Assembly: GCF_900176385.1 (NCBI RefSeq)
Contig: NZ_FWXN01000012.1
Span: forward strand, 62,001-126,000
Direction: 5' to 3'
Length of the DNA: 64,000 nucleotides
Source of the DNA: Janibacter indicus
GTDB lineage: Bacteria; Actinomycetota; Actinomycetes; Actinomycetales; Dermatophilaceae
A program made the translations under genes and the position numbers. Each line of letters begins with the position of its first letter. The first letter of the stretch is position 1. The notes beneath the pieces were generated by a model. That model searched no databases. It was not told the DNA's origin and worked only from the letters and a program-made list of their open reading frames with translations. Shown here piece after piece: positions 23,508 through 28,805 of this stretch.

Positions 23508-24689
23508 ATGACGAGCACCCCGGGCACCTCCGGCACCCGGACCCTCGACGTCGGGGTCGGCGACGGGTCGCTCGGCAGTGCCGACATGGTGCTCAACATC
23601 GGCCCCCAGCACCCGGCCACCCACGGGGTGCTGCGGCTGCGGGTCGCCCTCGACGGCGAGCGCATCATCTCCGCCGACCCGGTCGTCGGCTACATGCACC
23701 GCGGCGCCGAAAAGCTCTTCGAGGTGCGCGACTACCGCCAGATCACCGTCCTGGCCAACCGGCACGACTGGCTCTCCGCCTTCGGCAACGAGCTCGGCGT
23801 CGTCCTCGGCGTCGAGGCGATGCTCGGCATGGAGGTCCCCGAGCGCGCGACGTGGACCCGGACCCTCCTCGCCGAGCTCAACCGCGTGCTCAACCACCTG
23901 ATGTTCCTCGGCTCCTACCCGCTCGAGCTCGGGGCGATGACCCCGATCTTCTACTCCTTCCGCGAGCGCGAGGAGATCCAGGCGGTCATGGAGGAGATCT
24001 CCGGCGGCCGGATGCACTTCATGTTCAACCGCGTCGGCGGCCTCAAGGAGGACCTGCCCGCCGGGTGGCTCGACCGCGTCACCGCCGCCGTCGCGGCGGT
24101 CCGCGCGCGCATGCCGCAGCTCGAGGCGATGCTCGTCGGCAACGAGATCCTCGAGGCCCGCACCCGCGGGATCGGGGTGCTCCCCCCTTCGCTCGCCGAG
24201 GCCTACGGGGTCTCCGGGCCGATCGCCCGGGCCAGCGGCGTCGACCTCGACCTGAGACGCGACGCCCCCTACCTCGCCTACGGCGAGCTCTTCGGCGGCG
24301 GCGGGCCCGGCCGGGTCGTCACGCGGACCGCCGGCGACTCGCTCGCCCGACTCGAGGTCCTGCTCGAGCAGACGCACGTCAGCCTCGACCTGGCCGACGC
24401 CTGCGTCGAGCGACTCCGGTCCCTGCCGCGCGGCCCGATCAACCAGCGCCTGCCCAAGGTGCTCAAGGTGCCCGAGGGCGAGCGCTACACCGCCACCGAA
24501 AATCCGTTGGGCCTCAACGGCTACCACCTCGTCTCCCGCGGGGAGAAGACGCCGTGGCGGCTCAAGCTGCGCTCGGCCTCCTTCAACAACGTCCAGGTGC
24601 TCGCCGAGTTGCTCCCGGGCTGCCTCGTCGCCGACATGGTCTCGGTGCTCGGCTCGATGTTCTTCGTCGTCGGCGACGTCGACAAGTAG
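23508..24689 (+). CDS. nuoD: NADH-quinone oxidoreductase subunit D homologue, isolated gene
   Basis: Homologue of the 49-kDa/NuoD subunit, which with NuoB forms the quinone site of complex I; 393 residues, full length. Conserved parts are [13 protein letters not shown] (with the quinone-site His39), MHRGAEKL (Arg65, the position methylated in NDUFS2), [13 protein letters not shown] and the C-terminal [17 protein letters not shown]. At the second quinone-site position, where complex I has Tyr (RLDYLS), this protein has Trp88 (RHDWLS). No other nuo gene is in this window, so it is isolated from a nuo operon. It may be a paralogue with another partner rather than a working complex I subunit. Confidence 0.92.
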
Positions 24690-24772
24690 CCCCGCCGCGG
24701 GCGATGCGGCGCCGTCCGCGCCCGGAACGTGACCCCACCCACACCCCTCCCCACTCCGGTGGCACCCTTTGC

Positions 24773-24788
24773 TACCCGCGGGTAGGTT
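24773..24788 (+). promoter_or_regulatory. Palindromic operator overlapping the promoter of surface protein A
   Basis: TACCCGCGGGTA (24773-24784) is a perfect 12-bp palindrome; TAGGTT at 24783-24788 is a likely -10. A hairpin CGCCCCCGGtctCGGGGGCG-like follows at about 24802-24821 in the leader. The same TACCCNNGGGTA palindrome is present at 53842-53853. Confidence 0.45.
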
Positions 24789-24845
24789 GCCGGGACGACC
24801 GCGCCCCCGGTCTCGGGGGCGTGACCACCGAAGATGGGGAACTCC

Positions 24846-25754
24846 ATGACCAACTTCACCACCCGCGCCTCCGCGGGCGCCGCCCTCGTCACCGGGCTCG
24901 GCCTGATGGGGGTCGCCACCGCGGCGCCCGCCTCGGCGGAGGTCACCGGCAGCCTCGAGTACACCTGCGAGGAGGTCGGGCAGAACATCCAGTTCACCGA
25001 CCCGTGGACCGTCGACCTGACCCTCGACGTGCCGGAGGCCGTCGAGCAGGGCGAGACGATCCCGGCCGGCGCCGTCACCGCGACCGTCACCCCCGGCGCC
25101 GACGCAACGGAGACGATGCAGGGCCTGGGCGTGACCTCCCTCGAGGGCACGGCCGAGACGACCTACACCTTCGGCGAAGGGGGGACCGCCCGCGACGTGG
25201 CCCTCACCGTCCCGAAGACGGACGTGCCCGCCACCGGCACCGTCTCGGTGGACGCCACCGGCGAGAGCACGGAGGAGACCGCCCCGGCCGAGGACGTCAA
25301 CGTCCCGATCACGGCCGGCGACTTCACCGCCCAGCTCGAGAACCAGGACGGCTTCATCTTCCAGATCGAGTGCACCGCTCCCGAGGACGCGACGGTCGGC
25401 ACCGTCGCCGTCGGCGACGCGGAGCCGCCCGCCGAGGAGCCCGAGGAGCCGGCCGAGCCGGAGGAGCCGAGCGACCCGCCGGCCGAGCCGGAGGAGCCGA
25501 GCGACCCGCCGGCCGACGACACCGAGGAGCCGCCCGCCGACGACACCGGCTCCGGTGACGACGCCGGCGACGACGCGGGCGCCGGGTCCGGCGACGCCGG
25601 TGAGCCCGAGGTGCCCGGTGTGGTGCAGACCGACGGCGTCACCGCCGGGTCGGCACTGACGAGCCCCACGGCCATCGCTCTCGGCGGGCTCCTGCTCGCC
25701 GGTGCCGGCGCCTCGACCGTGGTCGTCGCGCGCCGCAAGGCCGCGCAGCACTGA
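24846..25754 (+). CDS. Cell-surface protein A with C-terminal anchor, paralogue of B
   Basis: Secreted protein of 302 residues. A signal peptide ends near ATAAPASA, then comes a beta-rich domain with two Cys (YTCEEVG, IECTAPEDATVGTV), then a Pro/Glu/Asp-rich linker with a 10-residue tandem repeat (AEPEEPSDPP twice, a 30-bp DNA repeat at 25451-25510). The C-terminus has PEVPGVVQTDG, a helix (ALGGLLLAGAGASTVVVA) and RRKAAQH: a sorting-signal layout without LPXTG or LAXTG. Protein B has the same layout. The ATG at 24846 matches the start of B and has GGGGA upstream. The domain may be DUF6801-like, which I cannot verify. Confidence 0.85.
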   Translation: MTNFTTRASAGAALVTGLGLMGVATAAPASAEVTGSLEYTCEEVGQNIQFTDPWTVDLTLDVPEAVEQGETIPAGAVTATVTPGADATETMQGLGVTSLEGTAETTYTFGEGGTARDVALTVPKTDVPATGTVSVDATGESTEETAPAEDVNVPITAGDFTAQLENQDGFIFQIECTAPEDATVGTVAVGDAEPPAEEPEEPAEPEEPSDPPAEPEEPSDPPADDTEEPPADDTGSGDDAGDDAGAGSGDAGEPEVPGVVQTDGVTAGSALTSPTAIALGGLLLAGAGASTVVVARRKAAQH

Positions 25755-25777
25755 CCGCGCTCCACGCGTCTGACGCA

Positions 25778-25804
25778 GCGCCCCGGGGAGGCTCCCCGGG
25801 GCGC
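25778..25804. terminator. Terminator after surface protein A
   Basis: GCGCCCCGGGGA, 3-base loop, TCCCCGGGGCGC: a perfect 12-bp stem followed by TTCG. Strong intrinsic-type hairpin without a U-run, as is usual at this G+C content. Confidence 0.75.
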
Positions 25805-25901
25805 TTCGCCGTCGTCCGAGGACCTCGACTCCGCCCCTCGCGCCCGCCTTTCTGGCCGCCCCTGCCCTGTGACCGGTCGGTGATACGTGGCTGGGAAAGG
25901 G

Positions 25902-25930
25902 TTGTGAGGGCTCTCAGCGGCCGGTAAGTT
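25902..25930 (+). promoter_or_regulatory. Promoter of surface protein B
   Basis: TTGTGA (25902-25907), 17-bp spacer, TAAGTT (25925-25930). The remaining leader has a small hairpin (GGTGC CTC GCACC, about 25941-25953) and the ribosome site GGGGAGAG before the ATG at 25985. The rest of the 230-bp gap holds only the terminator of gene A. Confidence 0.55.
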
Positions 25931-25984
25931 TCGGCGGGAAGGTGCCTCGCACCGGGGGCATCACGACTAGGGGAGAGAACTCAC

Positions 25985-27391
25985 ATGGCCAAGCGCCTCA
26001 CCGCCCGCCTGTCCGCGGGTGCCGCACTCGTCACGGGACTGGGGTTGGCCGGCATCGCCGTCAGCGTCCCGGCCAATGCCGACGTCACAGGGGAGCTCGC
26101 ATACAGCTGCGCAGTCTCGGACCTGGGGATCCAGTTCGAGGACCCGTGGAAGGTCGCCTTCACCCTCGGCGTCGACGAGACCTACGAGCAGGGAGCCGCT
26201 GTCACGGCGCCAAGCATCACGGCCGAAGTTACCCCGGGTGCCGATGCGCACGAGCGCATGCGCAGCCTCAACATCAAGTCCCTGGAGGGCACCGCCGACG
26301 CCAAGTACGCCTTCGGCGACACCGAGCGCAACTCCACGTTGAGTGTCGCCAAGGTTGACGTGCCGACCACGGGTGACGTCACGGTCGTCGCCACCGGCGC
26401 AGGTGCTGACGAGGTCGCCCCCATGGAGGACACCGAGCTCGACATCACCGCCGGCGACTTCACCGCGGCGCTCACGACCGACACAGGCTTCGTCCTCAAT
26501 CTCGCGTGCACCGCTCCCGCTGACGCAACCGTCGGCACGATCACCGTCGGCGACGCCACCTCCGAGCCCACCACCTCCGAGCCCACCACCTCCGAGCCGA
26601 CGACCTCGGAGCCGACGACCTCGGAGCCGACGACCTCCGAGCCCACCACCTCGGAGCCGACGACCTCCGAGCCGACCACGACGTCCGAGCCGACCTCGAC
26701 CTCCACCACGACGTCCGAGCCGACCTCGACGACCACGTCCGAGCCGACCTCGACGACCACGTCCGAGCCGTCCGCCACCTCCACGACGTCGGCGCCCTCG
26801 TCCACCTCGTCCTCCACGACGGCGGCCCCCGAGGTCAACGACTGGTTCATCGAGCCCGACAGCCTCCCGATCACCGAGGACGGCAAGAGCTTCACGGTCG
26901 AGGGCACCGCTGACCAGGACGGCGTGATCAGCGTCCTCCTGCTCGACGGCGACAAGAACGTCCTGCGCACCATCGAGTGGAATGTCTCCGAGGGGTCCAA
27001 CACCCGCGACTTCCCCTTCGCCGAGGGCACTGACTACGTCCGCCTCGTCTCCGAGGACTGCATCGACGCCAACGGCAACGACGGCTCGGTCGCCGGCGGC
27101 TGCAATGTCGAGTACTACGCCCCGTGGGTCAACCCCGACGACAACGGCGGCTCCACCACGAGCCCCGGTGACGACAAGGGCGACGGCAAGGGCAACAACG
27201 ACGGCAAGGGTGACGACAACGGCTCAAAGGGTCCCGAGACCCCGGGCGTCGTCCAGACCGACGGCTTCCAGCGAGTCCAGGAGCCGGCCGGCACCAACAG
27301 CGCCGCGTTCCTCCTCGGTGGGGCCCTCCTCGCCGGCGCCGGCGCCGGCACGCTCGTCCTGGCGCGTCGCCGCCAGAGCGCCCAGCACTGA
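25985..27391 (+). CDS. Cell-surface protein B with Thr/Ser-rich stalk and C-terminal anchor
   Basis: Secreted protein of 468 residues and paralogue of A. The N-terminal domain is alignable through its length (TGELAYSCAVSDLG, LACTAPADATVGTITVGDA). After it come about 75 residues of TSEPT and TTSEPTST repeats, a likely glycosylated wall-spanning stalk, then a second beta domain (EVNDWFIEPDSLPITEDGKS, with a Cys pair VSEDCIDANG/AGGCNVEYYAPWV), a Gly/Asp/Lys linker, PETPGVVQTDG, a helix (LLGGALLAGAGAGTLVLA) and RRRQSAQH. The second domain is absent from A. The sortase gene follows 156 bases later. Confidence 0.86.
   Translation: MAKRLTARLSAGAALVTGLGLAGIAVSVPANADVTGELAYSCAVSDLGIQFEDPWKVAFTLGVDETYEQGAAVTAPSITAEVTPGADAHERMRSLNIKSLEGTADAKYAFGDTERNSTLSVAKVDVPTTGDVTVVATGAGADEVAPMEDTELDITAGDFTAALTTDTGFVLNLACTAPADATVGTITVGDATSEPTTSEPTTSEPTTSEPTTSEPTTSEPTTSEPTTSEPTTTSEPTSTSTTTSEPTSTTTSEPTSTTTSEPSATSTTSAPSSTSSSTTAAPEVNDWFIEPDSLPITEDGKSFTVEGTADQDGVISVLLLDGDKNVLRTIEWNVSEGSNTRDFPFAEGTDYVRLVSEDCIDANGNDGSVAGGCNVEYYAPWVNPDDNGGSTTSPGDDKGDGKGNNDGKGDDNGSKGPETPGVVQTDGFQRVQEPAGTNSAAFLLGGALLAGAGAGTLVLARRRQSAQH
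26558..26769 (+). repeat. 15-bp coding minisatellite in gene B
   Basis: Units of the form ACC TCC GAG CCC ACC (Thr-Ser-Glu-Pro-Thr) repeat about eight times and then decay into TTSEPTST units. Units alternate between near-identical DNA variants (gagcccacc, gagccgacg), so length change by slippage or recombination would keep the frame. Confidence 0.85.
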
Positions 27392-27398
27392 GGCACCA

Positions 27399-27436
27399 TC
27401 ACTGACCTGAGTCAGTGACAGACGGCACGGGCCGTC
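27399..27436. terminator. Two hairpins after surface protein B
   Basis: TCACTGAC-CTGA-GTCAGTGA (27399-27418) and GACGGC-ACGG-GCCGTC (27421-27436). Together they probably end or attenuate transcription before the sortase gene. Confidence 0.5.
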
Positions 27437-27547
27437 GGGTCGGGATCCACTTCCCACCCGGCGGCCCGTACCGTTGTCCCCAGGGGGAACTCCGTGTGCC
27501 CCCCGGACGTTGACCTCGACAGCCGACACATGACATGGGAGGACCGT

Positions 27548-28339
27548 GTGACGACTCCGCCGACGCGACGACAGAAGTGGCGCGAACGCAAGCAGTACCG
27601 GCGCACGACGTGGCTCATCGCCGCCGCCGTGGCGCTCTTCATCGGGGGTGGCGCAGCCGCTGGTGCCTGGTGGACGCAACGCGACGACGATCCGTCCGCG
27701 CTGCCGGTCGGCACCTATGTCCCGCCGAGCGAGATCACCGAGCCCTCACGCCAGCCGGAGAGCTCGTCCTCGACGAGCCAGCGCTCGAGCTCCTCGTCCT
27801 CCTCGTCGAGCCCCTCCGCCGCAGCACAGCGCAGCGACGCCTCACCCTCGAGCGAGCAGGGCTCTGTGGAGGCGCCGGCCGGCAGCCCCACACGCGTGCA
27901 GGTTCGCTCCGGCGGTCGCGACATCGTCGACGCCAGCCTCGAGGCGACGCTGCTCGACTCCGAAAAGGTGCTGGCTCCCCCCTTCGGCACCGCGGGCTGG
28001 TACGCCGAGCCGGGCTGGCCCAAACCGGGCTATCAGGGCGCGAGCATCCTCGTCGGCCACATCAACCACGGCAGCAACCCCGACGTCTTCTGGAACCTGC
28101 CCCGAGTCAAGATCGGCGACGTCGTCACCGTCACCTACGGGTCGGGTCGGACCGTGAAGTTCAAGATCACCAAGTCGGAGCCCGCCTCGAAGAAGGGCGT
28201 GCCGCAGGACGACTCGATCTGGGACTGGGACAACCCCAACCCTGTGCTGCGCCTGATCACCTGTGACCCGGAGACCCCGATCAACCAGGGCCACTACGAG
28301 GGCAACTGGGTGGTGTGGGCCGACCAGATGGTCAGCTGA
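27548..28339 (+). CDS. Class F-like sortase
   Basis: Membrane-anchored transpeptidase of 263 residues. One helix (about 22-40) is followed by a Ser/Pro/Glu linker and the sortase beta-barrel from about 115. His171 is in ASILVGHINHG, and DVFWNLPRVKIGD and LRLITCDPETP (Cys239) fit class F. After the Cys, class F enzymes as I recall read HYRDN with the catalytic Arg; here it is HYEGNWVVWA, with Glu251. The start is GTG at 27548 with GGAGGA before it. It follows the two surface genes and is presumably their anchoring enzyme. Its end overlaps the DUF3180 gene by 8 bases. Confidence 0.88.
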   Translation: MTTPPTRRQKWRERKQYRRTTWLIAAAVALFIGGGAAAGAWWTQRDDDPSALPVGTYVPPSEITEPSRQPESSSSTSQRSSSSSSSSSPSAAAQRSDASPSSEQGSVEAPAGSPTRVQVRSGGRDIVDASLEATLLDSEKVLAPPFGTAGWYAEPGWPKPGYQGASILVGHINHGSNPDVFWNLPRVKIGDVVTVTYGSGRTVKFKITKSEPASKKGVPQDDSIWDWDNPNPVLRLITCDPETPINQGHYEGNWVVWADQMVS

Positions 28340-28805
28340 GCGAAGAGCCCTCCGACTCCTCGTCGTCATCGTCGTCGACGCGACACCACCACTGCACGAC
28401 CATGCCGGCTGCGAGGAGGGCGATCGCCCCGAGGCCCGCCACCGACCAGGCCAGCGCGAGCTCACCGCGCCCCGCATAGCCGATGTCCGGTGCCAGGGCG
28501 AGGGCCTGACCGAGGTAGAGACCGGCGACGACGGCGCCCGTGATGGCGCTGGCCTGGGCCAGCCGCAGGATCCGCTCGGCGACGATCGGGCCGACGTGGG
28601 CGCGACCGTGGCGCATCCGCCACATGCGGCGCCCCGTCACGACGACGACGGCGGCCATGCCGAGCAGCAGCACACCGGTGAACCACCCGACCCGCAGCGG
28701 GGAGTGGCCACCGGAGATCCACCAGCGGCCGAAGCCCCAGCTGAGGACGCCGGCGACCGCGAGGACCCCCAGGACGGTCGGCAGGCGCAGTCCGCGATCG
28801 AGCAT
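28332..28805 (-). CDS. DUF3180-type membrane protein
   Basis: 157 residues with four predicted membrane helices and an acidic C-terminus (DDDDDEESEG). The ATG shares a base with the folBK stop (TGATG), so it is the last gene of the ftsH-folE-folP-folBK run. Proteins of this kind regularly follow folK in actinobacteria; their function is not known to me. Confidence 0.8.
   Translation of the reverse strand: MLDRGLRLPTVLGVLAVAGVLSWGFGRWWISGGHSPLRVGWFTGVLLLGMAAVVVVTGRRMWRMRHGRAHVGPIVAERILRLAQASAITGAVVAGLYLGQALALAPDIGYAGRGELALAWSVAGLGAIALLAAGMVVQWWCRVDDDDDEESEGSSLS

Follow-up and report, generated by a model that had tools for sequence, protein, structure and literature searches.

A 64,000-nucleotide stretch of the Janibacter indicus genome (contig NZ_FWXN01000012.1, positions 62,001 to 126,000; hereafter the window) contains, on its + strand, two genes encoding secreted DUF6801 proteins followed by a sortase gene. 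These three genes probably constitute a self-contained surface-display module, in which a dedicated sortase acts on a C-terminal sorting signal of the type PxVVQTD; we put the probability of this reading at about 0.87. At the level of sequence and structure prediction, the signal, its pairing with one sortase clade, the sortase fold and the conserved His and Cys residues are all in place. The genome (3.42 Mb, 29 contigs) encodes three sortases.

The two secreted proteins are paralogous (56% identity over 190 amino acids, aa), and their N-termini, judged by eye, read like Sec-type signal peptides. Both pass the 26-bit cut-off of PF20611 (DUF6801; scores in Table 1). The C-terminus of protein 1 is ...EPEVPGVVQTDG-helix-ARRKAAQH and that of protein 2 is ...GPETPGVVQTDG-helix-ARRRQSAQH. 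An earlier note, made from the sequence of the window, had described such a pair, ending in PGVVQTDG, a hydrophobic helix and an RRK/RRR tail, and the sequence bears this out. A search of the whole genome for PGVVQTDG with up to two mismatches gave three matches, versus none for a reversed-pattern control. Two of them are exact and correspond to the C-termini of proteins 1 and 2. The third, PGMVQTEG, lies inside an open reading frame (ORF) that appears by eye to encode a short-chain dehydrogenase, and no helix and basic tail stand behind it.

The sortase comprises a basic N-terminus, one hydrophobic helix (about 27611-27673, judged by eye), a Ser-rich linker and a sortase domain matching PF04203 with 59.5 bits (cut-off 26.6). 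The sortase fold was found in its predicted structure (predicted local distance difference test, pLDDT, 94.7). Its best NCBIfam match is the class F model NF033748, with 87.6 bits, under the curated cut-off of 166. Three other members of its clade scored 84.0-87.6 bits with this model, a Saccharibacteria enzyme 70.5, three enzymes of other subclades 62.9-83.0 and three canonical enzymes 170.0-192.8. The NCBIfam class C model gave 13.7 bits (cut-off 160), and the class E and class B models were not among the NCBIfam matches of the enzyme (E<=1 for class E). A search of PDB sequences with the window sortase alone returned three weak matches, none of them a sortase, while a profile of its clade found class C, A, D and E sortases together with some unrelated chains (E 1e-4 to 1). 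No entry titled class F was present among the best 50 of the first 1000 chains compared with Foldseek; this listing includes 5uus, titled SrtF of C. diphtheriae.

The earlier note had proposed testing whether the motif and the sortase clade occur together, and among 186 genomes of the same family they do. A sortase domain search yielded matches at E<=0.001 in 148 of these genomes, and 38 of them, J. indicus included, reached at least 110 bits. The signal was searched in the same 186 genomes with A2, a profile of 44 signals. The rows of A2 were chosen by a VQTD-containing pattern from genomes in which the profile was then searched, and the invariance of P and VQTD within it is partly circular. 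Genomes were classified with thresholds of 110 bits for the sortase and 35 bits for the signal, the latter with a match starting at profile position <=3; both were set after the lists were known. At most 37 candidates were scored per genome in the family search, and at most 17 in a search of the order. On this basis 28 genomes have both the sortase clade and a strong signal, 10 the sortase only, two the signal only and 146 neither. Two genomes counted as neither, G093 (with a PTEVQTD neighbour) and G050 (PTLVQTD), fall under both thresholds, and their enzymes lie within the clade in the tree described below. Of 396 genomes of the order, 15 had a match to the signal profile at E<=1e-5; in the four outside the family it starts at profile position >=11, i.e. 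it covers the helix and tail without the motif.

Several observations weigh against a dedicated pair. The Fisher test for co-occurrence (p 1.3e-22) makes no correction for kinship, and most of the control genomes are different in further ways as well. Of the signal-only genomes, G037 has a sortase match covering just 52 residues, at the edge of a contig, and in G075 the contig ends 42 bases past the substrate; assembly gaps may account for both. In six of the 10 sortase-only genomes the signal beside the sortase is a variant: PSTVQT[DG] in G015, G183 and G185, PSVVNTG in G067 and GPPVQTD in G087 and G088. Two others have below-threshold signals away from the sortase (PGLVQTD, 30.5 bits, in G049; PAAVQTD, 32.6 bits, in G090), and no signal was found in G047 and G156. 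Moreover, the signal might in principle also be a target of the two other class F-like sortases of the J. indicus genome. Kinship is addressed in part by contrasts within genera. In genus g29 the sortase is present in four of nine genomes and the signal in the same four plus G075; in g46 the sortase is present in five of 12 and the signal in four of those; in g47 both occur in the same one of three. Both are found in all 16 genomes of g1, the genus group of J. indicus, while in g35 all three carry the sortase and two the signal. At L133 (G156) and L134 (G090) the window-type sortase domain match is partial, as if the gene were decaying, and the signal match is below 35 bits in both genomes; G090 keeps its PAAVQTDGG protein at a separate locus (L234).

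The motif was also followed away from the sortase gene. Sites matching its DNA pattern with at most one mismatch were hand-picked among the matches listed: 43 in 17 sortase-carrying genomes and 18 in 16 clade-free genomes. As far as the assemblies show, all but two of the 43 lie apart from the sortase gene, the exceptions being two sites in L167, whose sortase sits on another contig. A C-terminal signal with helix and basic tail was found at 33 of the 43 sites, versus none of the 18. Amino-acid changes in VVQTD affect five of the former and six of the latter, and a recount of intact-VVQTD sites gave 33/38 versus 0/12. Ten of the 43 are not signals, and two of these are truncated, L159 by a contig edge and L174 by an early stop. 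When ten of the signal proteins were scanned, one each proved to contain an M28 peptidase, a bacterial Ig domain, DUF11 or HtaA, one had a weak prenyltransferase-type match under the cut-off, and five had no family assignment. Beyond their tails the signal proteins have little in common, so that the motif goes with the enzyme and not with a protein family, and the unlinked proteins carrying it are taken to be further substrates.

Forty neighbourhoods were fetched, their C-termini were read, and a tree of 72 class F-like sortases was built from 133 columns; it has several long branches, and its deep forks are uncertain. The window enzyme belongs to a clade of 38 rows (support 99/90), of which 32 have a neighbouring signal of the PxVVQT type, two have GPPVQTD and four have none found. 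Beside the other enzymes, GPxV[EQ]T[DG] signals were read in 17 rows overall, 15 of them within one clade, and GGVETG in a single row; within the GPxV group one signal reads GPPVITD. A neighbour scan with a looser pattern also gave PSTVQT[DG], PSVVNTG, PRLVHTD and PKVVRTD. By parsimony, a single change separates the PxVVQT and GPxV labels, and PxVVQT versus all other rows requires five changes (shuffle mean 23.9, 0/500 as low). The canonical enzymes – L001 and those of Frigoribacterium and Kitasatospora – lie across a 100/99 branch from the window enzyme in this tree of 133 columns and long branches. Labels of L001, L271 and L257 were assigned by hand, and for some of the 22 rows labelled none the neighbours fall beyond contig ends. 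L112 (G055), L134 (G090) and L266, at each of which the pattern missed a sortase, have no row in the tree, nor does L217, and the tree used four of the 31 loci from the search that returned L217.

As read from these neighbourhoods, the signals sort by sortase clade into PxVVQTD, GPxV[EQ]T[DG] and GVETG. By similarity, the clade of the window enzyme is class F-related and occurs mainly in Janibacter and its family; the predicted substrates beside its members have P-x-[VLTKSE]-V-[QHRN]-T-[DG] in place of LPXTG. Adjacency, co-occurrence, the tree and the control sites thus support the idea of the earlier note that VVQTD, with its Thr in position four of LPXTG, is the signal of a dedicated sortase. 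The GPxV[EQ]T[DG] type was encountered as a second signal at L245, L246, L248, L254, L255, L258, L260, L262, L264, L267, L268 and L299, and at 10 of these 12 loci the neighbouring sortase is class F-like and belongs to a different subclade.

LPXTG substrates elsewhere in the J. indicus genome, which the earlier note had named as part of a condition that would tell against its proposal, were not found with the LPXTG_anchor model (TIGR01167). This model gave eight matches at E<=5, two of them over its 15.9-bit cut-off (contig 7, 16.7 bits; contig 28, 16.8 bits including neighbours), and all eight were inspected; one is window protein 2, and a C-terminal LPXTG was absent from the other seven. Protein 2 scored 15.3 bits, below the cut-off, and protein 1 was not matched at E<=5. 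The match on contig 8 ends with VDVTG, a helix and RRRDVPHR and by eye appears to be the terminus of an ABC transporter permease. In the model searches made with the window proteins, none of the NCBIfam and Pfam signal models exceeded its cut-off. The A2 signals, judged by best E-values only, were matched at E<=10 by TIGR01167 in 19/44 cases (best E 0.0027), by PF00746 in 15/44 (0.0017) and by NF058571 in 22/44 (1.5e-6).

A canonical class F sortase is encoded on contig 28 (G000:C28:203316-204195; L001, L249) and adjoins a protein ending with PPTGGVETGGG and a helix. This GGVETGG protein reaches 33.1 bits with NF058571 (GVDTG_CTERM, cut-off 29 bits), and the two window proteins score 16.6 and 14.0 bits. 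The PGVVQTDG and GGVETGG pairs thus make two enzyme/signal pairs in one genome. The third sortase (contig 13, G000:C13:55663-56085; L002) groups with the GPxV clade, and no adjacent substrate was found on the stretch fetched.

The earlier note had drawn attention to Glu251 of the window enzyme, at a place where the catalytic Arg was expected, and had seen in it a sign of co-adaptation between a changed enzyme and a changed signal. His171, Cys239 and Glu251 are present as numbered there, but the role given to Glu251 does not hold. The position is not fixed, being E in 20, K in five, D in four, R in two and L in one of the 32 PxVVQT-linked enzymes, and Glu in 24 of all 72. Arg is also missing from enzymes with other signals. 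No alignment column is Arg throughout the 72 sortases, and 17 of the 72 in total have one at Cys+8 to +14: 2/32 PxVVQT-linked, 10/17 GPxV-linked, 1/1 GGVETG-linked and 4/22 unlabelled enzymes. The window enzyme has none in this stretch; nor does a class F sortase from an Arthrobacter agilis plasmid that scores above the NCBIfam cut-off, while some GPxV-linked enzymes retain one. Absence of the Arg, common to enzymes with other signals, is therefore by itself no mark of the VVQTD pair. In Streptomyces SrtE1, Arg329 lies nine residues past Cys320, according to the excerpted text of PMC5148588. An Arg at Cys+10 was considered as a rule for class F and rejected, the column being Arg in just 2/72, and Glu251 was likewise rejected as a diagnostic residue, as it varies among relatives. 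Lys215 and Arg235 are candidates for stand-ins for the missing Arg.

In the proposed mechanism, the DUF6801 proteins would be exported via Sec and stay in the membrane through the helix and basic tail at their C-termini. The sortase, itself membrane-bound, would then recognise P-x-V-V-Q-T-D, with Cys239 attacking the carbonyl of Thr; the cut would most likely fall between Thr and Asp, and the substrate would be passed on to an amine group on a precursor of the cell wall. The cleavage site, the acceptor, attachment to the wall and the action of this enzyme rather than another are the parts of the scheme that we infer.

Another class F-like sortase, that of contig 28 or that of contig 13, might anchor the proteins, in which case the system would not be dedicated. 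The presence of three sortases in the genome and the V-x-T-[DG] shared by signals beside the family's class F-like sortases fit this idea, but the contig 28 enzyme adjoins its own protein over the GVDTG cut-off that both VVQTD proteins miss, and clades and signals separate in the tree. In addition, the strong VVQTD signal varies with the window clade in g29 and g46, though other class F-like matches persist there; we consider this explanation unlikely. It is very unlikely, in our judgement, that the VVQTD proteins are merely membrane-anchored, the sortase acting on other targets and the motif being a conserved stalk end. G047 and G156, with a sortase and no signal found, agree with such a view; on the other hand, the motif, rather than the helix, tracks the enzyme in unlinked proteins with different or no recognised domains, and a Saccharibacteria contig (see below) holds motif and sortase together.

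The occurrence of one sortase beside two paralogous substrates could also suggest a class C-like polymerase joining the DUF6801 proteins into a pilus or fibre. Unlinked signal proteins exist in many genomes, however, and the class C model scores far below its cut-off while class F is the best match, which leaves this explanation very improbable. The paralogues were accordingly rejected as pilins for want of class C similarity.

A dedicated sortase with a PxVVQTD signal was compared with known systems. The class F enzyme of Propionibacterium acnes has LPXTG as its signal. Class F is said to have been first reported from this species, by Di Girolamo in 2019 as cited in PMC13251363. With class F (NF033748) the window enzyme shares the fold, the His and Cys, a neighbouring substrate gene and an LRLITC strand, besides being best matched by this model; it differs in its score, its separate clade and its PxVVQTD signal in place of the GVETG of the contig 28 pair. 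NF058571 likewise represents a signal other than LPXTG that contains Thr and is followed by a helix and a basic tail, and one member in this genome stands beside the canonical class F sortase, but the window proteins fall short of its cut-off and align only from profile positions 17 and 11 onward. As this model is already curated by NCBI, non-LPXTG signals are known in kind. Class B sortases use NPQTN; they would share with the window pair cleavage after Thr before a non-Gly residue, and they differ in signal and in model. The LAXTG of class E keeps Leu, Thr and Gly, and its Streptomyces representative SrtE1 has the Arg after Cys mentioned above (excerpts of PMC5148588). We regard the PxVVQTD sortase and its signal as a new pair, for which cleavage itself is what we infer.

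One paper library was searched, and no literature was found there on VVQTD or on DUF6801; further searches of it yielded no title dealing with this signal. Among the matches listed, no paper on GVDTG, PVV-CTERM or GVETG concerned a sortase by title, and those on Janibacter and sortase treated other subjects by title. According to excerpts of PMC13251363, what class F sortases do physiologically is still not known, an Actinoplanes missouriensis mutant without all four class F enzymes showed an unchanged phenotype, and substrate searches relied on LPXTG-like motifs. A V-x-T-[DG] rule, if valid beyond the family, would make class F substrates findable, and a sortase whose tag is unlike LPXTG would be a candidate orthogonal tool for protein ligation.

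A two-gene insert related to the module was encountered on a 5.8-kb contig of a metagenome-assembled genome titled Candidatus Saccharibacteria (L217:2845-4915; JACMLL010000022.1). It encodes a protein ending with PAKVQTDGG and a helix (G+C 0.617) and a window-type sortase (50% identity, G+C 0.554). It is flanked by genes for ribosomal protein S6, SSB, EF-P and an S4/FtsJ-type methyltransferase on one side and the C-terminus of YchF on the other (G+C 0.475 and 0.477). With housekeeping flanks of one G+C, a single misjoin is hard to invoke, and the insert is possibly a gene transfer from an actinobacterium into an epibiont lineage. That substrate and sortase occur there as one unit adds to the case for a partnership of enzyme and signal, and raises the question of whether these epibionts acquire surface-anchoring modules from actinobacteria. 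At L312, L313, L314, L315, L316, L318, L320 and L321, all from the Saccharibacteria class, class F-like sortases adjoin proteins ending with PxG[GA]VxAG and a helix, where Ala takes what looks like the place of Thr in the sorting signal. Of 392 genomes of this class, 228 gave a sortase match at E<=1e-5.

A broader proposal can be made tentatively, although as a whole we regard it as somewhat improbable. Class F-like sortases would form mutually orthogonal pairs beyond LPXTG (PxVVQTD, GPxV[EQ]T[DG], GVETG and the Saccharibacteria PxG[GA]VxAG with Ala for Thr), at least two of them in one genome; PxVVQTD enzymes without the canonical beta8 Arg would use Lys215 and/or Arg235 or His249; and the two-gene module would move between phyla. 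The Arg retained in the Cys+8 to +14 stretch by 10 of the 17 GPxV-linked enzymes weighs against this joint proposal.

Table 1. Coordinates (window numbering) of the module genes, their domains, signals and selected sortase residues.
Feature	Position	Strand	Details
Secreted surface protein 1	24846..25754	+	302 aa; predicted signal peptide, DUF6801 domain, E/P-rich linker, putative C-terminal sorting signal
DUF6801 domain of protein 1	24960..25394	+	DUF6801 E=1.5e-17, 66 bits
Putative sorting motif PGVVQTDG of protein 1	25614..25637	+	followed by hydrophobic helix and ARRKAAQH
Secreted surface protein 2, paralogue of protein 1	25985..27391	+	468 aa; T/S/E/P repeat stalk and further sequence before signal
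DUF6801 domain of protein 2	26102..26530	+	47 bits in genome search
Putative sorting motif PGVVQTDG of protein 2	27242..27265	+	followed by hydrophobic helix and ARRRQSAQH
Class F-related sortase	27548..28339	+	GTG start, 263 aa; PF04203 E=3.6e-16; alternative in-frame GTG at 27494
His171, predicted catalytic His	28058..28060	+	His in 72/72 class F-like sortases
Lys215	28190..28192	+	Lys in 72/72
Arg235 (Cys minus 4)	28250..28252	+	Arg in 30/32 PxVVQT-linked, 41/72 overall
Cys239, predicted catalytic Cys	28262..28264	+	Cys in 72/72
His249 (Cys plus 10)	28292..28294	+	Arg in same genome's canonical class F enzyme; His in 65/72, Arg in 2/72
Glu251, residue singled out in the earlier note	28298..28300	+	variable

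A scan of positions 24690-28500 for promoters and terminators found none. The upstream flank (23508-24689) reads like NADH dehydrogenase subunit D, and the other flank like folate genes and ftsH. The window sortase had no match in phage records; among plasmid records 28 of 72,556 matched, all with <60% identity, and the best 15 of these 28 comprise eight annotated as class F sortase, one as sortase and six unannotated. The predicted structure of the DUF6801 domain (24960-25394) is most similar to 3lso, from a putative membrane-anchored C. diphtheriae protein, which stands clearly ahead of the next match.

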